Assembly: GCA_030650395.1 (NCBI GenBank)
Contig: JAUSDY010000028.1
Coordinates: 62,001-126,000 of the forward strand
DNA: 64,000 bases
Direction of reading: 5' to 3'
Origin: Acidobacteriota bacterium
GTDB taxonomy: Bacteria; Acidobacteriota; Vicinamibacteria; Vicinamibacterales; UBA2999
In this document: in pieces, positions 3,606 through 32,432 of the stretch
Position numbering within the stretch: position 1 is the first letter of the stretch
How the letters are laid out: the number at the start of each line of letters is the position of its first letter
Made by a program: the position numbers and the translations under genes
The notes under the pieces: model-generated
The model's database searches: none
Seen by the model: only the letters and a program-made list of their open reading frames with translations
What the model was told of the DNA's origin: nothing

Positions 3606-4930
3606 GAATGATCCCCCGTCGCACTGGGTGTCGCCGGACGGTCACCAGCCCTCATCTCCCAGATCGAGATGATCGGCACGAACTTCGAGAACAAGGCGTA
3701 GAGCAGGATCATCGCCGCGAACGTCGCGGCCATGATCGTCAGCTCGACTGGCCGTGGCTCGTAGGTGCCCCACGAGTACGGCAACTGCTTATGCGCGAGC
3801 GACGGCACGATGATCAGGAAGCGCTCCAGCCACATGCCAACCAGGACGCCAAGCGACGCAATCACGCATCCTGTAATAGTGCGCAGCCGCCTGATCCCGA
3901 GGATCGGCAACGGAATGACAAAATTGCAGACCACCATCGTCCAGTAGAACACTGCGTACTCGCCGCGCTGGGTAGCCCAAAACACTGCCATCTCTGACGG
4001 TTCGTTGCCATACCAGACGGTGAGGCGCTCGGCGAACACGAAGTACGCCCACAGCAGGCTCATCAACAACAACAGCTTGCCGAGATTTTCGAAATGAATC
4101 GGCTGCAGGTAGGCCTCGAGGCGCAGGGTCTTGCGCAGCACCGCCATCGCGATGATCAGCGCCGCGATGCCGCTGAAGATCGCGCCGGCGACGAAGTACG
4201 GCCCGAAAATCGTGGAGTGCCACATCGGCACGGTTGCCATCGAGAAATCGAACGACACGATGGTGTGCACCGACACCGCGACGGGGATGATGGCGACCGC
4301 CATGATCTGCATCGCCGATTCGAGCCGGTTCCACTGCGTGGTCGTGCCGCGCCACCCGAACGCCAGAAACCCATAGACGCGGCGCCGCCAGCCCGTCGAT
4401 CGATCGCGCACCAGCGCCAGGTCCGGAATCATCGGCAGGAACAGGAACAGCACGCTGCCGGTGAGGTAGGTGTTGATCGCAAAGAAGTCCCACGCCAGCG
4501 GCGAGCGGAAGTTCGGCCAGATCTCCCGCGAGCTCGGGTACGGAAAGAGCCAGAAGGCCAGCCACGGCCGTCCGAGATGAATGATCGGAAACATCGCGCC
4601 GATCATCAACGCAAACACGGTGATGACCTCGGCGCAGCGAGTGACCGGCCGGCGCCATTGCGCGTCGACCAGCCGCAGGATCGCCGAGATCAGCGTGCCG
4701 GCATGGCTGATGCCAATCCAGAACACGAAGTTGACCAGGTAGAAGCCCCAGAACACCGGCCACCGGATGCCGGCGACGCCGATCCCGTTCCAGACCTGGA
4801 AGGCCCACGCCGCGGCGCCGCACGCCACCACTGTGCCCGCGGTGAGGACGATGGCATAGAACCACACCGAGGTGTGGAACAACGGCCGCACCAGGTCGTC
4901 GGCGAGCGGCTTAGTGAGCGTCCGGTTCAT
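3602..4930 (-). CDS. actC: Alternative complex III subunit ActC (NrfD/PsrC-like quinol-binding)
   Basis: 442 residues with about ten predicted hydrophobic helices, matching the NrfD/PsrC polytopic fold of ActC. In the complex this subunit binds menaquinol near the periplasmic face, contacts the FeS subunit, and contains a putative proton path. Helices are evident at about residues 24-44, 58-88, 100-120 and onward, e.g. VFALMIGAMFPIIHLGRPW. The conserved segment NFVFWIGISHAGTLISAILRL is typical. The ATG at 4930 overlaps the FeS gene stop (TAA 4911-4913) by 20 bases, and the end overlaps actD. Only one NrfD-like subunit is present here, although many act operons also carry a second (ActF). Confidence 0.94.
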   Translation of the reverse strand: MNRTLTKPLADDLVRPLFHTSVWFYAIVLTAGTVVACGAAAWAFQVWNGIGVAGIRWPVFWGFYLVNFVFWIGISHAGTLISAILRLVDAQWRRPVTRCAEVITVFALMIGAMFPIIHLGRPWLAFWLFPYPSSREIWPNFRSPLAWDFFAINTYLTGSVLFLFLPMIPDLALVRDRSTGWRRRVYGFLAFGWRGTTTQWNRLESAMQIMAVAIIPVAVSVHTIVSFDFSMATVPMWHSTIFGPYFVAGAIFSGIAALIIAMAVLRKTLRLEAYLQPIHFENLGKLLLLMSLLWAYFVFAERLTVWYGNEPSEMAVFWATQRGEYAVFYWTMVVCNFVIPLPILGIRRLRTITGCVIASLGVLVGMWLERFLIIVPSLAHKQLPYSWGTYEPRPVELTIMAATFAAMILLYALFSKFVPIISIWEMRAGDRPATPSATGDHS

Positions 4931-27792: not shown

Positions 27793-28150
27793 CTTAACCC
27801 TAGGCAGCGGCCGAACGCGGAGAGGTATCTCCCGGCGTTCGCTCTCGCTCGGCGGTCAAATCTTCCTCGCCGCATTAATCGCCCCAGCGATGGACGCGCC
27901 AAATGGGCCCAACGCTTTTTGCTCAAAGCAACCTCTCGTCGCGTAGCGGGGCCGACTGCCGTCTGCTGATTAACCATTAGTGCGCGGTTTCTTCGATCGA
28001 GACCGCCCACGCCCCCGCGCCCGGCAGCGGACCTGACAGTGAGGGCAAGTGGGCGCGCCACCACGCCTGCGCGTGGAGCGTCATCGCGACTGAAGGCGTG
28101 CCAATCCGGGCAGGTGACGCATGGCGGTCATGGTAGTCTAGCGCCAGCTC
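27793..28150. other. Intergenic region upstream of the Thr-Ile operon leader
   Basis: No convincing gene. A minus-strand frame ending at 27977-27979 reads WWRAHLPSLSGPLPGAGAW then AVSIEETAH. It could be the end of a lost gene, but it has no start and runs antisense to the leader peptide. A TANNNT-type -10 candidate (TAGTCT, 28134-28139) lies just before the leader ATG, which would give an almost leaderless start. This is tentative. Confidence 0.3.
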
Positions 28151-28237
28151 ATGTTCACGACCCTGCGGGCCGCCTTCGTCATCATTATTTGCACTGCCAT
28201 TACTACGACTTGTGGGGGCCACAAGCGGATGAGGTGA
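28151..28237 (+). CDS. thrL: Thr/Ile leader peptide of the thrA-ilvA attenuator
   Basis: 28 codons, ATG 28151 to TGA 28235-28237. Residues 11-20 are IIICTAITTT, four Ile and four Thr among ten, and two more Thr are near the start (MFTT). This is the composition of the ThrL control run in enterobacteria, where scarcity of Thr or Ile stalls the ribosome and prevents termination. It is followed by a strong terminator hairpin and then by the bifunctional aspartokinase/homoserine dehydrogenase and threonine dehydratase genes, whose end product is isoleucine. No strong ribosome site precedes the ATG. The function is inferred from composition, position and the RNA structures. The sequence is not a copy of the E. 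coli peptide. Confidence 0.82.
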   Translation: MFTTLRAAFVIIICTAITTTCGGHKRMR

Positions 28238-28274
28238 GTTGCAAGACTCCGGGCTTACAAAAGGCCGCATCCGC
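28225..28274 (+). promoter_or_regulatory. Antiterminator pairing of the thr-ilv attenuator
   Basis: GCGGATG (28225-28231), overlapping the end of the leader reading frame, is the exact reverse complement of CATCCGC (28268-28274), which lies in the 5' arm and loop of the terminator. Pairing of the two would prevent the terminator. An early leader segment (GGCCGCCTT, 28169-28177) can in turn pair with AAGCGG of the same region, giving the classic 1:2, 2:3 and 3:4 choices. Confidence 0.7.
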
Positions 28275-28295
28275 GAAGGGATGGCGGCCTTTTTC
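28259..28295 (+). terminator. Attenuator terminator upstream of thrA
   Basis: The stem AAAAGGCCGC-ATCC (28259-28272) pairs with GGATGGCGGCCTTTT around loop GCGAA with one bulge, then continues TTTTTCATTTT. This is a GC-rich stem with a U tract, the standard intrinsic terminator form, 22 bases after the leader stop and 47 bases before the thrA start. Confidence 0.88.
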
Positions 28296-28341: not shown

Positions 28342-30867
28342 GTGAAGCAGGCGGGACTTGAAGTCTGGAAATTCGGCGGCGCCTCGGTGGCCGATGGCCG
28401 CGCCATTCAGCGGGCGGCGGAACAGATCGCCGCACATCGCGGGCCGCTGGTGGTGGTGGTGTCGGCGCTCGCGGGCGTCACCGACCTTTTGCTCGAGGCC
28501 ACACCGCAGGCCGCCGATACATTCCGGCGAAAGCATCGCCAGGCCGCGAGAGCGGTGCTCGGATCAGGAGCAGTGCTGCGGCGAATGCTGGCGCAGATCG
28601 ACGCCTCGGCGGGTGAGTACCGGGACGTCTGCGCCGCGATCGAGATTCTTGGCCACCTCTCGCCTCGTGTGCAAGACACGCTCGTGGCGCGTGGCGAACA
28701 ACTGTCGGCAACACTGCTCGCGGCGGCCGTCACCCGGGCGCGGCGGCGGGCGACGTATGTGAATGCGCTCGACGTGGTCCGCACGGACGATGCCCATGGC
28801 GGCGCGGCGCCGCTGCTCGACGACACGGCGGCGCAGGCGCGCAAGATTCTTCGGCCGATCATCGCCGGCGGCGCGGTGGCGGTCGTGCCCGGCTTCATCG
28901 GGCGCGCGCCCGACGGCAGCCTCACGACGCTGGGCCGCGGCGGCACGGACCTGACCGCCACCCTGCTCGCGCGATCGCTTCGCGCCCGTCATGTCGTGCT
29001 GTGGAAGGACGTGCCGGGCATTCTCACCGCGGATCCGCGGCTCGTTCCAGATGCGCGCGTGATCCCGCAGCTGCATCATCGCGAAGCCGCCGAAGTCGCG
29101 CACTACGGCGCGAAGGTCTTGCACCCGCGCGCCCTCATCCCGATCGCCGGCACGCGCATCACGCTGCGGGTGCGGTCGTTCATCGATCCATCGTTACCGG
29201 GCACTGAAGTCTCGGCGCGACAGTCGCTGAAAGCCTATCCAGTGAAGGCGCTGGCGATCCTACCGGCGCAGGCCGTGATCACCGTGGCCGGCAAGGGCAT
29301 GGTGGGTGTGCACGGCATCGCCGCGCGCACGTTTACCGCCGTCGATGCGGCAGGGTTGTCGGTCTCGACGATCTTCCAGGCCTCGTCCGAGAGCTCGATC
29401 GGTTTTACCGTTCCAGAAGATCAATCGGAGCGCGCCGTCACGAGCGTTCGACATGGCCTTCGGCACGAGCTGACGCACGGACTGATCGATGGCGTTACGG
29501 CGCGGACGCGGATGGCCGTGATCGCCGTGGTTGGCGAGGGCATGGTCGGCACGCCCGGCATTTCGGCGCGCGTCTTCACCGCCCTCGAATCCGGCGGCAT
29601 CAACGTGGTGGCGATCGCGCAGGGATCGTCGGAGCGCAATATTTCGTTTGTCGTCGGCTCCGCCGACGCGGCCGAGGCCGCGCGGCGGGTCCACGCGGCA
29701 TTTCAACTGTCAAAGATCGGCGGCGGGCGCCCGGTGTCGAAGCCTTACACCGACGTCGTGCTGCTCGGATTCGGCCGCGTCGGGCGCGCGCTCTCGGATC
29801 AGATTGCCGCCGCCAATGGCCCCCTTCGCCCAAGGGCTTCCACCTCCGCCAAGGCTACGGCGGACAGGTTGGCCGGCCAAGGCGAGCGCCACGTCCGCAT
29901 CGTCGGGTTGCTCGATCGATCGGGCTACGTGTTCGACGCCCGCGGACTGTCGCGGTCGCGGCTGCTTCGGCTGGCTCGGGCTAAGGATGCGGGCGCGTTG
30001 CTCACGACGCTTGGCGGCCACAAGGCGACGGCGCCGGAAGCGCTCGCGCTGATGTCCGGCCATGCGGTGTCGCGCCCGGTGGTGGTGGACGTGACGAGTG
30101 ATGACACCGGTCCGCTGCTGCATACCGCCGTCGGCCAGGGTTTCGACGTGGTCATGGCCAACAAGAAGCCGCTGTCCGGATCGTGGGAAAGCTATGCCCG
30201 GCTGCTCGAGTCCTCGATCACGACCGGCCGCCGGATCCGCTACGAAGCGACGGTGGGCGCCGGGCTGCCGATTATCGATACCTATCGCAAGCTCGCCGAG
30301 ACAGGCGACCGCGTCCTTCGCATCGATGGCTGCGTGAGCGGCACGCTGATGTACGTGCTGTCGGAAGTGTCTGCCGGGCGCCCGTTCTCGCAGGCGGTGC
30401 GTGAAGCGGTCGAGCGCGGCTACGCCGAGCCGGATCCGCGCGACGATCTGTCGGGTCGCGATGCGGCCCGCAAGGGGCTGATCCTCGCGCGCATGATGGG
30501 CTACCGCGGCGCGGCGCCGTCCGCCGACGACCTGGTGCCACCCGCCTATCGAGGGTTGTCGCTGAAGCAATTTCTCGATCGCTTGCCTGAACTGGACGAT
30601 GCGTGGCGGAAGCGCACGGCCGCCGAGACCGCGCGCGGACGAGTGTTGCGCTATGTGGTGTCGGCCACTCCGCGCAAGGTCAGCGCGGGCATGGTAGCGG
30701 TGCCATCGACAAGCCCGATGGGTGCGGCAAGCGGGACGCGGAACATCGTGACCTTCCACTCGCGGCGCTATCGCAACGAGCCGCTGGTGATCAGCGGACC
30801 CGGAGCGGGTGCGGAAGTCACAGCGGCCGGCCTGCTCAACGACATCTGTTCTCTGGGGGCATCATGA
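28342..30867 (+). CDS. thrA: Bifunctional aspartokinase/homoserine dehydrogenase
   Basis: 841 residues from GTG 28342, preceded by GGAG at 28330-28333. The aspartokinase domain comes first (about 1-275: WKFGGASV, TLGRGGTDLTATLLA, YGAKVLHPRA). Two ACT domains follow at about 305-470 (ITVAGKGMVG, IAVVGEGMVGTPGISARVF), then homoserine dehydrogenase to the end (GFGRVGRALSDQI, VVMANKKPLSG, GGLPII-like GAGLPIIDT). The terminal part (FHSRRYRNEPLVISGPGAGAEVTA) is complete. It catalyses the first and third steps from aspartate to threonine. Residues of about 492-514 (RASTSAKATADRLAGQ) are encoded by a mobile repeat and interrupt the Rossmann fold between its first helix and second strand. TGA overlaps the ilvA ATG. 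Confidence 0.96.
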   Translation: MKQAGLEVWKFGGASVADGRAIQRAAEQIAAHRGPLVVVVSALAGVTDLLLEATPQAADTFRRKHRQAARAVLGSGAVLRRMLAQIDASAGEYRDVCAAIEILGHLSPRVQDTLVARGEQLSATLLAAAVTRARRRATYVNALDVVRTDDAHGGAAPLLDDTAAQARKILRPIIAGGAVAVVPGFIGRAPDGSLTTLGRGGTDLTATLLARSLRARHVVLWKDVPGILTADPRLVPDARVIPQLHHREAAEVAHYGAKVLHPRALIPIAGTRITLRVRSFIDPSLPGTEVSARQSLKAYPVKALAILPAQAVITVAGKGMVGVHGIAARTFTAVDAAGLSVSTIFQASSESSIGFTVPEDQSERAVTSVRHGLRHELTHGLIDGVTARTRMAVIAVVGEGMVGTPGISARVFTALESGGINVVAIAQGSSERNISFVVGSADAAEAARRVHAAFQLSKIGGGRPVSKPYTDVVLLGFGRVGRALSDQIAAANGPLRPRASTSAKATADRLAGQGERHVRIVGLLDRSGYVFDARGLSRSRLLRLARAKDAGALLTTLGGHKATAPEALALMSGHAVSRPVVVDVTSDDTGPLLHTAVGQGFDVVMANKKPLSGSWESYARLLESSITTGRRIRYEATVGAGLPIIDTYRKLAETGDRVLRIDGCVSGTLMYVLSEVSAGRPFSQAVREAVERGYAEPDPRDDLSGRDAARKGLILARMMGYRGAAPSADDLVPPAYRGLSLKQFLDRLPELDDAWRKRTAAETARGRVLRYVVSATPRKVSAGMVAVPSTSPMGAASGTRNIVTFHSRRYRNEPLVISGPGAGAEVTAAGLLNDICSLGAS
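29835..29869. repeat. 35-base mobile word, copy 2 (inside thrA)
   Basis: Identical over 35 bases to 26255-26289, here translated on the sense strand as ASTSAKATADR. Flanking words (CCTTCGCC before, TTGGC or TCGGC after) are also similar, so the full mobile unit is probably about 50-60 bases. Confidence 0.9.
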
Positions 30868-32432
30868 CGGGTGGGGACACACCTTCAGGTTTGTCCGACA
30901 CGAGTCCCGATGCGATGCTGCGCCTGATTCTGACCAGTCGCGTCTACGACGTCGCGCGCGCGACGCCCCTCGACGTGGCGCGCCGGCTCTCGCAGCGGAC
31001 CGGTAACCAGGTCTTCCTGAAACGCGAGGATCTGCAGCCGATCTTCACCTTCAAGCTGCGCGGCGCGCACAACCGCATGGCGCATCTGTCAGAGGACGAG
31101 CGCCGGCGCGGCGTGATCACCGCCAGCGCCGGTAACCACGCCCAGGGCGTCGCGTTTTCGGCGCGCCATCTCGGTCTCAGCGCGCTCATCGTGATGCCGC
31201 AAACGACGCCCGAGATCAAGGTTGAGGCCGTGCGCGAACTGGGCGCTGAGGTCGAGTTGGCCGGCGACACCTTCGCCGATGCAAAGGCGCGGTGCGACGA
31301 GCTCACGATCTCGAGCGGGCGCGTGCTGATCCACCCGTTCGACGATCCGCTGGTGATCGCGGGGCAAGGAACGATCGCCATGGAGATCCTCGGCCAGGGG
31401 CGTGACGACCTCACGGCGATCTTCGTGCCGGTCGGCGGCGGCGGCCTGATCGCGGGCATCGCCAGCTACGTGAAGGCGATCAGGCCGGAGGTCAAGGTCA
31501 TCGGCGTCGAGCCGTTCGAAGCCGACGCGATGTACCGGTCGCTCGAAGCCGGCCGCCGCATCCTCCTCGATCGCGTGGGCATCTTCGCCGACGGCGTCGC
31601 GGTGCGGGAAGTCGGCGCCCTGACCTTTCCGATCGTCCAGGCGAACGTCGACGAGGTGATCCGCGTGTCGAACGATGAGATCTGCGCGGCGATCAAGGAC
31701 GTCTTCGACGATACGCGCTCGCTGATGGAGCCGGCGGGCGCACTGGCCGTAGCGGGCCTGCGCGCGTGGGCGGCGCGCACCGGCGCCACCGGCCTGAACC
31801 TGGTGGCGGTGTTGAGCGGCGCCAACATGAACTTCGATCGCCTGCGCTTCGTCGCCGAACGGGCCGAGGTCGGCGAGGCGCGCGAGGCGCTGTTCGGCGT
31901 CACGATTCCCGAGCGGCCGGGCGCCTTTCGTGACTTCTGCGCCACCATCGGCCGGCGCGTCGTCACCGAGTTCAACTACCGCCTGAGCAGCCGCCACGAG
32001 GCGCACATCTTCGTCGGCATCGCGACGCAATCGAAGCAGAACGCCGTCGACCTCACCGCGTTGCTGCAGCACAAGGGTTATCAGACGATCGACCTGACCG
32101 GCGACGAAGTGGCGAAGCTTCACATTCGCTACATGGTCGGCGGGCACGCACCTGACGTGTCGAACGAACAGCTCTACCGCTTCGAGTTTCCCGAGCGGCC
32201 CGGCGCGCTGATGGAGTTCCTGGATCGGCTAGGCGGGCGCTGGAACATCAGCCTGTTTCACTATCGCAACCACGGATCGGATTTCGGCCGCGTCCTCGCC
32301 GGATTCGAAGTGCCGAGCAGCGATGCGACTGACTTCGCGCAGTTTCTCGAAGGGCTCGGCTATCACCACCAACGCGAGCAGGACAACGACGCCTATCAGC
32401 TGTTCCTGGGCGGACGCGCGCAGCGAGGCTGA
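30864..32432 (+). CDS. ilvA: Threonine dehydratase, long biosynthetic form
   Basis: 522 residues from ATG 30864, overlapping the thrA stop and preceded by GGGGG. It is a PLP enzyme that converts threonine to 2-oxobutanoate, the entry to isoleucine. Motifs: FTFKLRGAHNRM with the PLP lysine, TASAGNHAQGVAFSA, and the glycine loop VPVGGGGLIAGI. Two C-terminal ACT-like regulatory domains are present (FGVTIPERPGAFRDF and YRFEFPERPGALMEF), the form inhibited by isoleucine. The first 15 residues (GGDTPSGLSDTSPDA) are encoded by a palindromic repeat, and typical IlvA begins near MLRLILTSRVYDVA. Placement with thrA and the Thr/Ile leader makes one regulon. Confidence 0.96.
   Translation: MTGGDTPSGLSDTSPDAMLRLILTSRVYDVARATPLDVARRLSQRTGNQVFLKREDLQPIFTFKLRGAHNRMAHLSEDERRRGVITASAGNHAQGVAFSARHLGLSALIVMPQTTPEIKVEAVRELGAEVELAGDTFADAKARCDELTISSGRVLIHPFDDPLVIAGQGTIAMEILGQGRDDLTAIFVPVGGGGLIAGIASYVKAIRPEVKVIGVEPFEADAMYRSLEAGRRILLDRVGIFADGVAVREVGALTFPIVQANVDEVIRVSNDEICAAIKDVFDDTRSLMEPAGALAVAGLRAWAARTGATGLNLVAVLSGANMNFDRLRFVAERAEVGEAREALFGVTIPERPGAFRDFCATIGRRVVTEFNYRLSSRHEAHIFVGIATQSKQNAVDLTALLQHKGYQTIDLTGDEVAKLHIRYMVGGHAPDVSNEQLYRFEFPERPGALMEFLDRLGGRWNISLFHYRNHGSDFGRVLAGFEVPSSDATDFAQFLEGLGYHHQREQDNDAYQLFLGGRAQRG
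30875..30896. repeat. Palindrome at the ilvA start
   Basis: GGACACACCT and AGGTTTGTCC surround TC, a variant of the GACAAACCTAAAGGTTTGTC family. It begins 8 bases after the ilvA start codon's last base and encodes DTPSGLS. It may affect initiation by forming a hairpin over the ribosome-entry region. Confidence 0.75.

Follow-up and report, generated by a model that had tools for sequence, protein, structure and literature searches.

The leader region of the thrA–ilvA operon

Within the window, by which we mean the whole 64,000-nucleotide stretch of DNA analysed here, Pfam and NCBIfam searches identified on the forward strand, on which all the window features described below also lie, a thrA gene with a GTG start (28342–30867), encoding a bifunctional aspartokinase/homoserine dehydrogenase, followed by ilvA (30864–32432), encoding a threonine ammonia-lyase with two ACT-like regulatory domains; the two genes overlap by ATGA. 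The Pfam domains of ThrA scored above cut-off, and the NCBIfam model for the bifunctional enzyme gave 660.6 bits against a cut-off of 726. Upstream of these genes, the element under study (28151–28294) begins with a Thr/Ile-rich ORF of 28 codons (28151–28237), translated as MFTTLRAAFVIIICTAITTTCGGHKRMR and then a stop, in the sequence of which the candidate regulatory codons are Ile 11–13, Thr 15, Ile 17 and Thr 18–20 (28181–28210). With 8 of 10 residues, this is the densest Thr/Ile run in the window, as judged against 407 ATG-initiated ORFs of 15–45 codons (both strands, nested starts counted), two of which reach seven such residues. The leader stop lies 104 nt from the thrA start, with the terminator in between.

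This terminator, an intrinsic hairpin with a U tract (28259–28294), was predicted by folding; the stem is AAAAGGCCGCATCC-GCGAAG-GGAT(G)GCGGCCTTTT (28259–28293), with Ts at 28290–28294. Its 5′ arm contains CATCCGC (strand 3, 28268–28274), which is the exact reverse complement of GCGGATG (strand 2, 28225–28231), a conserved stretch that overlaps the end of the ORF. A first-pass annotation of this DNA had proposed the 28-codon Thr/Ile frame before thrA–ilvA, the U-tailed terminator and the seven-base antiterminator pairing, and all of them are borne out, the frame in sequence and coordinates, the hairpin by folding and the pairing by its exact match. A simple pattern scan for promoters and terminators listed neither at this locus; the terminator stem has a bulge.

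Folding of the 150-nt stretch alone was unremarkable (z −1.12, 29 of 200 shuffles equally good), the 121-nt core gave a z value of −2.64 (1 of 200), and the elements of the six relatives described below folded unusually well, at z −3.77 to −5.85 with none of 200 shuffles equally good in each case. Between the regulatory codons and strand 2, folding also placed a hairpin, CTTGTGG-GGG-CCACAAG (28209–28225), which is a possible pause hairpin; at 96 family loci, the stretch of 40 nt that leads up to the core folded at −14.6 kcal/mol compared with −11.6 kcal/mol in mononucleotide shuffles (mean z −1.17). In the full-length minimum-energy fold of the window element, a 1:2-like pairing is found together with the terminator. 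In RNA ending at strand 3 and free of ribosomes, predicted 2:3 pairing was 0.54 in the window and 0.75–0.98 in five other leaders, and because ribosome-free RNA also forms 2:3, an untranslated leader may read through. A classical protector hairpin appears doubtful on these folds, which do not predict the termination of untranslated RNA that the textbook model calls for.

Conservation and predicted switching of the thrA element

The main test of whether the element is more than chance is its conservation. We searched for ThrA in 149 class genomes, 43 family genomes and a titled-genome collection, the last of which gave 14 loci (13 titled Acidobacteria or Acidobacteriota and one Acidimicrobiia). 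The upstream regions of 30 loci were read, comprising 28 close thrA orthologues and two 38% relatives, truncated and duplicate loci being left out. The whole element was found in seven of the 28 close orthologues: the window (L001), L005, L006, L007, L008 and L031, which represent all same-genus genomes with this thrA (six of nine), and L015, which belongs to another genus. The leader, both antiterminator strands and the terminator thus recur before thrA in six other genomes. The other three genomes of the genus (G060, G113 and G149) gave best ThrA matches of only 36%, and in G113 a long ilvA is interrupted by the contig end. The first-pass annotation had named the lack of a conserved Ile/Thr run and stems upstream of orthologous operons as the result that would refute it; that result was not obtained, the run and stems being conserved at these seven loci, all the same-genus ones included. 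The element was absent upstream of the other 21 of the 28 close orthologues read. A search with model R2 for an attenuator near thrA in other families (57 loci, the known thrA leaders of L034–L036 and minus-strand echoes being set aside) returned one weak match, L020, at E 0.078.

The seven thrA elements share a core at the ORF end, CGGATGAG, and a common terminator form, AAGGGCCATCATCCGCAGGGATGATGGCCCTTTT; beyond the codon run, the leader peptides, of which MHSAAARPTITRTTITTGDHSSG and MQTHPSAATTIVITTTTCGVPRG are examples, share little sequence. The ORF stop is the TGA inside GGATGA in six of the seven leaders. The window leader, the Ile-richest of the set, carries an additional base and is closed by a stop five bases further on in a different frame, which preserves an open frame despite the shift in bases.

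When the RNA is cut off at strand 3, this strand pairs with strand 2, and over the antiterminated helices of the seven elements 87.9% of cells were paired, compared with 81.3% in shuffles and at most 45.5% in slid versions. Four pairs in this set are changed on both sides, a number reached by 45 of 500 shuffles; none lies in the 2:3 helix, six of the eight pairs of which are invariant. We also observed that in six of the seven the antiterminated form (28225–28274 and its relatives) has within it a hairpin located beyond the leader stop, along with a further pairing that involves the outer arm of the terminator, giving a three-way junction that would tie up the entire terminator 5′ arm.

An extended −10 promoter-like site, TGGTAGTCT (28131–28139), ends 11 nt before the leader ATG. 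The pattern TGnTAnnnT ends 10–13 nt before the ATG in all seven thrA leaders, with a chance of about 0.002 each, and a Shine–Dalgarno-like tetramer was seen in one of them (L005, 3 nt from the ATG). In the wider family (87 loci, 176 candidate ATGs), −10-like hexamers are most frequent 10 nt before the ATG (12 compared with 2.1 expected) and number 40 compared with 16.5 at 7–13 nt, with a second, smaller excess at 27–31 nt (28 compared with about 11). A promoter-like site at a fixed short distance from the ATG is found in all seven thrA leaders, six of them with no Shine–Dalgarno-like tetramer, and more weakly in the wider family; near-leaderless mRNA, read from the promoter position, is probably the simplest explanation.

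The annotation had also given the presence of ilvA in the operon as the rationale for the leader. A long ilvA adjoins thrA in G000, G141 and G043, whereas in G066, G051 and G023 the leader is retained although thrA is not followed by ilvA, the next gene being on the opposite strand; in G074 the contig ends behind thrA. Because ilvA stands beside thrA in just three of the six same-genus genomes with leader and thrA, it is not the reason for the leader, and that rationale fails. Linkage to ilvA as the cause of the Ile codons was likewise considered and found no support, the counts being 4, 1 and 2 in linked and 2, 1 and 2 in unlinked leaders. In G119, from the same family, thrA has no leader and a separate ilvA carries an element (L102), with AAIIRIEAV upstream of the core; its frame extends without interruption from a GTG that precedes the stop by 54 codons, and no start codon nearer than that GTG was found to precede the Ile codons.

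The placement of the codons was assessed by a stall scan of six thrA leaders, in which all RNA as far as the position 14 nt beyond the first A-site base was treated as hidden, and the 2:3 pairing fraction was calculated. For the window this fraction was 0.85–0.87 for stalls from I11 to C21, 0.41 at G22, 0.01 at G23 and 0.00 at the stop, and in the five other leaders it was 0.98 at the last Thr/Ile codon, falling to 0.09 or less within a further two or three codons. Given this drop, the last Thr codon precedes the last position at which a stall is still useful by one to two codons. All four Ile codons of the window leader stand where a stall would free strand 2.

Related elements before other amino-acid operons

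A covariance model, R1, built from the seven thrA leaders only, gave matches at E ≤ 0.1 in at least 130 of the 193 genomes of the class; at E ≤ 0.001, and with the class included, matches were found in 87 of 396 phylum genomes with R1 and 100 of 396 with R2. These class and phylum tallies include false matches, since some of the loci read look spurious, some of them being plain terminators. We read 109 class loci (29 among the matches listed and 80 requested by place), seven of which are the training leaders. Downstream genes were grouped by blastp and representatives were named with NCBIfam or Pfam. According to tblastn, the first genes within 1500 nt were ilvD (22), hom (21), pheA (18, not counting L169 with pheA of 40% at +412), ilvB (3), ileS (2) and ilvA (1), so that amino-acid genes stand behind 67 of the 102 non-training class loci; further genes were cysG-like (1) and LysR (5). 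Leaders end in LVVVVRSVGVIITPAASG before ilvD, MPMSMRMRTVSAMSM before hom and GFVGVVVLVVRPTG before pheA, and L115 has ilvD behind pheA and then ilvB, the last recognized by the similarity of its start. Twelve of the 109 loci (L120, L147, L160, L166, L169, L174, L175, L179, L180, L183, L184 and L187), which resemble plain terminators or have nothing downstream, were left out of the pairing (97-element), −10 and hairpin counts. The proposal of a thrA–ilvA attenuator therefore needs qualification: the element does sit there, but it is not thrA-specific, the same core being found before ilvD, hom, pheA and others. The genome from which the window comes has two clear elements, that of the window and a second on contig C92, where a small ORF follows; its next-best place is weak (E 0.01), and two weak places that were read (L211 and L212) look spurious.

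To compare leader codons with the genes that follow, we determined the percentage of each residue in codons 7–18 before the stop, in the leader frame and in the other two frames, at 78 loci in the blastp groups (which put L126 under ilvD; by tblastn its first gene is pheA, and L176 is added to ilvD). The thrA leaders contained 50% Thr and 13% Ile in the leader frame (0 and 0% in the other two for both), ilvD leaders 44% Val (3 and 1%) and 13% Ile (0 and 0%), hom leaders 16% Thr (2 and 0%) and 13% Met (0 and 0%), pheA leaders 34% Val (1 and 6%) and 6% Phe (6 and 1%), and leaders at the GYGHG small-ORF loci described below 32% Leu (17 and 8%) and 14% Ile (1 and 2%). In these data residues match genes, with a score of 361 compared with a maximum of 284 in 5000 label shuffles, and that the match is specific to the leader frame. 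Sensing of Phe by the pheA–ilvD–ilvB leaders was rejected as unsupported, since the Phe share is not leader-frame specific, and Val is supported instead.

In both the thrA and ilvD leaders, the regulatory codons end six codons before the stop, near the computed limit for freeing the antiterminator, with regulatory residues at 0–0.14 in the last six codons and at 0.71 and 0.86 respectively at codon 7. This amounts to an anatomical rule for thrA and ilvD leaders, whose last six codons are nearly devoid of regulatory ones. The pheA leaders have 0.24–0.29 at codons 5–7 and 0.82 at codon 8, and in hom leaders the edge is soft.

Covariation in the wider family was mixed. Across 97 elements, from which seven of the 104 rows of alignment A3 had been dropped (six partial and one minus-strand, all retained in the pair-counter tests), 704 of 776 cells of the 2:3 helix were paired, compared with 676.5 ± 3.7 and a maximum of 691 in 5000 shuffles, kinship being ignored. 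A pair counter on 102 distinct A3 rows found 23 cells of this helix changed on both sides compared with 7.9 (none of 500 shuffles, again ignoring kinship); as pairs, three were changed on both sides (reached by 412 of 500 shuffles), with ten further types (419 of 500), and the compensatory signal is confined to three columns. In the terminator stem (3:4), 8 of 14 pairs were changed on both sides, which none of 500 shuffles reached, in an alignment that was fitted to 3:4 and with kinship ignored. We also looked for concerted evolution of the core and rejected it: ilvD and hom elements of the same genome (11 genomes) had a similarity of 0.795 compared with 0.788 for different genomes (permutation p 0.23), and same-operon elements were more alike (0.828). 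As same-genome elements are hardly more alike than those of different genomes, recent copying or conversion finds no support.

Some individual class loci deserve mention. In L163 and L185, an element with an Ile-rich frame (GIITPIGIPIGIIGAGIR in L163) precedes the isoleucyl-tRNA synthetase gene ileS, and at a single locus, L091, a Cys run, CPICSCCCTTMM, precedes a gene for a cysG-like siroheme synthase domain. The hom leaders of family f12 (L090, L092 and L139) are Met-rich, as in MPMSMRMRTVSAMSM, and other hom leaders are mixed Thr and Met. LysR-type regulator genes lie behind the element in L086, L094, L134, L145 and L149, several leaders being rich in Val, Leu or Ile.

In other classes, 9 of the 14 R1 loci read look real and L193, L196, L200, L202 and L203 look spurious. 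Three of the real elements precede cimA, with leaders like AIIIRSII, one precedes ilvD and five precede ilvN, four of these with a Val/Ile leader and the fifth (L195) cut by the contig start; two of the five ilvN elements have an 11 bp 2:3 match, GGTTCGGATGA:TCATCCGAACC. Among 22 other-class loci read with R2, 16 stand before ilvB, ilvN, cimA or ilvA, one before an unknown gene, and three (L231, L237 and L239) look spurious; the elements ahead of cimA, ilvN, ilvB and ilvA in other classes come with Ile/Val leaders. L220 and L226 are other-class R2 elements before glutamate-synthase-like genes, named by eye, with an unclear leader signal. The genes at L189, L195, L232, L234 and L241 were named with NCBIfam and the remaining other-class genes by eye.

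Proposed mechanism, alternatives and precedents

Of the features by which an attenuator is recognized, a short ORF enriched in codons for the operon product is present at the window locus; an intrinsic terminator lies between it and the first gene, with predicted structure, U tract, conservation and compensatory changes; an antiterminator that would exclude the terminator has its 5′ strand near the leader stop, with mixed covariation; and regulatory codons are placed as expected according to the stall scan of six thrA leaders and the codon positions in four groups, the hom edge being soft. Together with the gene-matched codon identity of the wider family, these observations, all of them computational, support the earlier reading, and the window element is very probably a ribosome-mediated transcription attenuator. 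For its start site, translation, termination, direction of response and sensing of Ile, we infer the following scheme. The RNA would start probably a few bases upstream of the leader ATG, and the leader would be translated by a ribosome closely trailing RNA polymerase. If Thr-tRNA and Ile-tRNA were plentiful, the ribosome would reach the leader stop and cover strand 2 (28225–28231), so that strand 3 would pair with strand 4, the terminator would form and the RNA would end near 28294. If Thr-tRNA (or Ile-tRNA) were scarce, the ribosome would stall on the codon run, leaving strand 2 free to pair with strand 3, and polymerase would continue into thrA–ilvA. Since a Thr/Ile leader and a switchable stop signal precede the operon, it should turn on when Thr or Ile is scarce.

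The same attenuator might sense Thr alone, the Ile codons being incidental, which we consider possible, if on balance doubtful. Thr is dominant in all seven thrA leaders, six of which have one or two Ile codons (outside the run in L015), and the number of these codons does not follow ilvA linkage in the counts given above; set against this are the position of the four Ile codons of the window, at each of which a stall would free strand 2, and the frame-specificity of Ile in thrA leaders, so that joint sensing of Thr and Ile by the window leader seems plausible. T-boxes, riboswitches and RNA-binding proteins control amino-acid genes elsewhere, and such a sensor could in principle govern the terminator here with the small ORF incidental. 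Apart from a tRNA, however, no Rfam family reached threshold in the window, and none did in 15 family loci; what is conserved, moreover, is an open frame with residues that vary according to the gene, and a ligand sensor would have no need of that. This reading is very improbable.

We regard as equally remote a role of the ORF in translational coupling or reinitiation, or through a peptide acting in trans, with the terminator as a constant brake. Leader peptides can work in trans, as in the case of peTrpL of Sinorhizobium meliloti in the available text of PMC7298713, and short leader genes may aid reinitiation according to that of PMC4833913, but here the leader stop and the thrA start are 104 nt apart, with the terminator in between, the antiterminator is conserved and the peptides share little beyond the run. 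A random ORF ahead of an ordinary terminator would agree with the unremarkable folding of the 150-nt stretch and with the fact that weak model matches are often plain terminators; recurrence at seven thrA loci and the gene-matched leaders of the family make it scarcely credible, and in our judgement chance is already refuted.

In E. coli, the leader peptide of thrL is rich in Thr and Ile and precedes thrA, with a terminator and an antiterminator. Proteobacterial attenuators were reportedly surveyed in 2004. When the threshold was dropped, the thrL family (Rfam RF00506, Thr_leader) was the top-scoring one on the stretch that holds the element and aligned over its full length (28167–28294), scoring 17.5 bits where the gathering cut-off is 55 (E 0.73); by the Rfam standard the window element is thus not a Thr_leader member. 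Unlike thrL, the window has ilvA behind thrA, its core also stands before other operons, and its start looks nearly leaderless. At gathering scores, Rfam 15, T-box included, gave only a tRNA elsewhere in the window and no match in 15 family loci. Leader-peptide attenuators of Actinobacteria (trp, trpS and leuS, and Ile/Val/Leu leaders before ilvB) likewise combine regulatory codons with a terminator outside Proteobacteria, but they belong to another phylum and other genes, and no thrA, hom, cimA or ilvD leader was found there in the available text (PMC1262725). The attenuator RNA of S. meliloti trpL (rnTrpL) has its 5′ end at the leader-peptide ATG and is a leaderless small mRNA (available text of PMC7298713); that case concerns Trp in an alphaproteobacterium, whereas the near-leaderless start in the window is read from the promoter position only.

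According to the accessible part of a 2010 survey (PMC2965389), Proteobacteria and Actinobacteria were the only groups in which leader-peptide systems had been demonstrated until that survey added its own case from Firmicutes; attenuators were predicted in Acidobacteria from premature terminators, almost none with an associated function, and no leader peptide is named there. An ilvD motif considered as a relative (PMC8632094, accessible part) is a Veillonella element and not of the window family. The open-licence literature, as far as accessible and including PMC2965389, PMC4833913, PMC8632094 and PMC2864571, contained no description of a leader-peptide attenuator of this kind in Acidobacteriota, which agrees with the annotation's claim that it is undescribed in the phylum; the kind of attenuator is already known, and it is its occurrence in Acidobacteriota that is without earlier description in that literature. 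The element and its relatives give many predicted attenuators of the Acidobacteria, a little-studied phylum, a concrete, testable role, in which the amino acid sensed at each operon would be readable from the leader codons.

The window element thus appears to belong to a set of elements that extends across the phylum and is built around a shared core, the leader codons of each being what would determine the amino acid sensed. That operons with different codons have a common core raises the question of whether amino-acid specificity evolves by recoding one module. We speculate, as a rather unlikely possibility, that copies of a single ancestral attenuator cassette, with a fixed antiterminator/terminator core, came to stand upstream of many Acidobacteriota amino-acid operons and were re-tuned by exchange of leader codons (Thr, Ile, Val, Leu, Met and, at one locus, Cys), giving a charged-tRNA-sensing regulon based on nearly leaderless leader peptides, one branch of which would control small proteins that end like LeuA in sister families and may act in trans on leucine synthesis.

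These small proteins are encoded at 14 of the 109 class loci (L109–L114, L087, L088, L097, L117, L134, L158, L099 and L172), where a small ORF of otherwise varied sequence lies right behind the attenuator and ends in GYG[HY]G[VI]; the leaders before them are rich in Leu and Ile. The locus in the window's own genome, one of L109–L114, is on contig C92 of G000, with the element at 4260–4338 and a small ORF that ends at 4715. No Pfam match (two tested) or NCBIfam match (one tested) was obtained for these ORFs, and no mention of GYGHGV was found in the open-licence literature. The LeuA proteins of G000, G066, G043 and G050 do not have the GYGHG[VI] end, which in several families (L243–L276) does terminate LeuA, a 2-isopropylmalate synthase without the C-terminal regulatory part. 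As a DNA pattern, GYGHG[VI] occurred 74 times in 69 of 193 class genomes, compared with nine occurrences of a reversed control, and the tail common to the small ORFs and LeuA suggests a common partner or regulation in trans.
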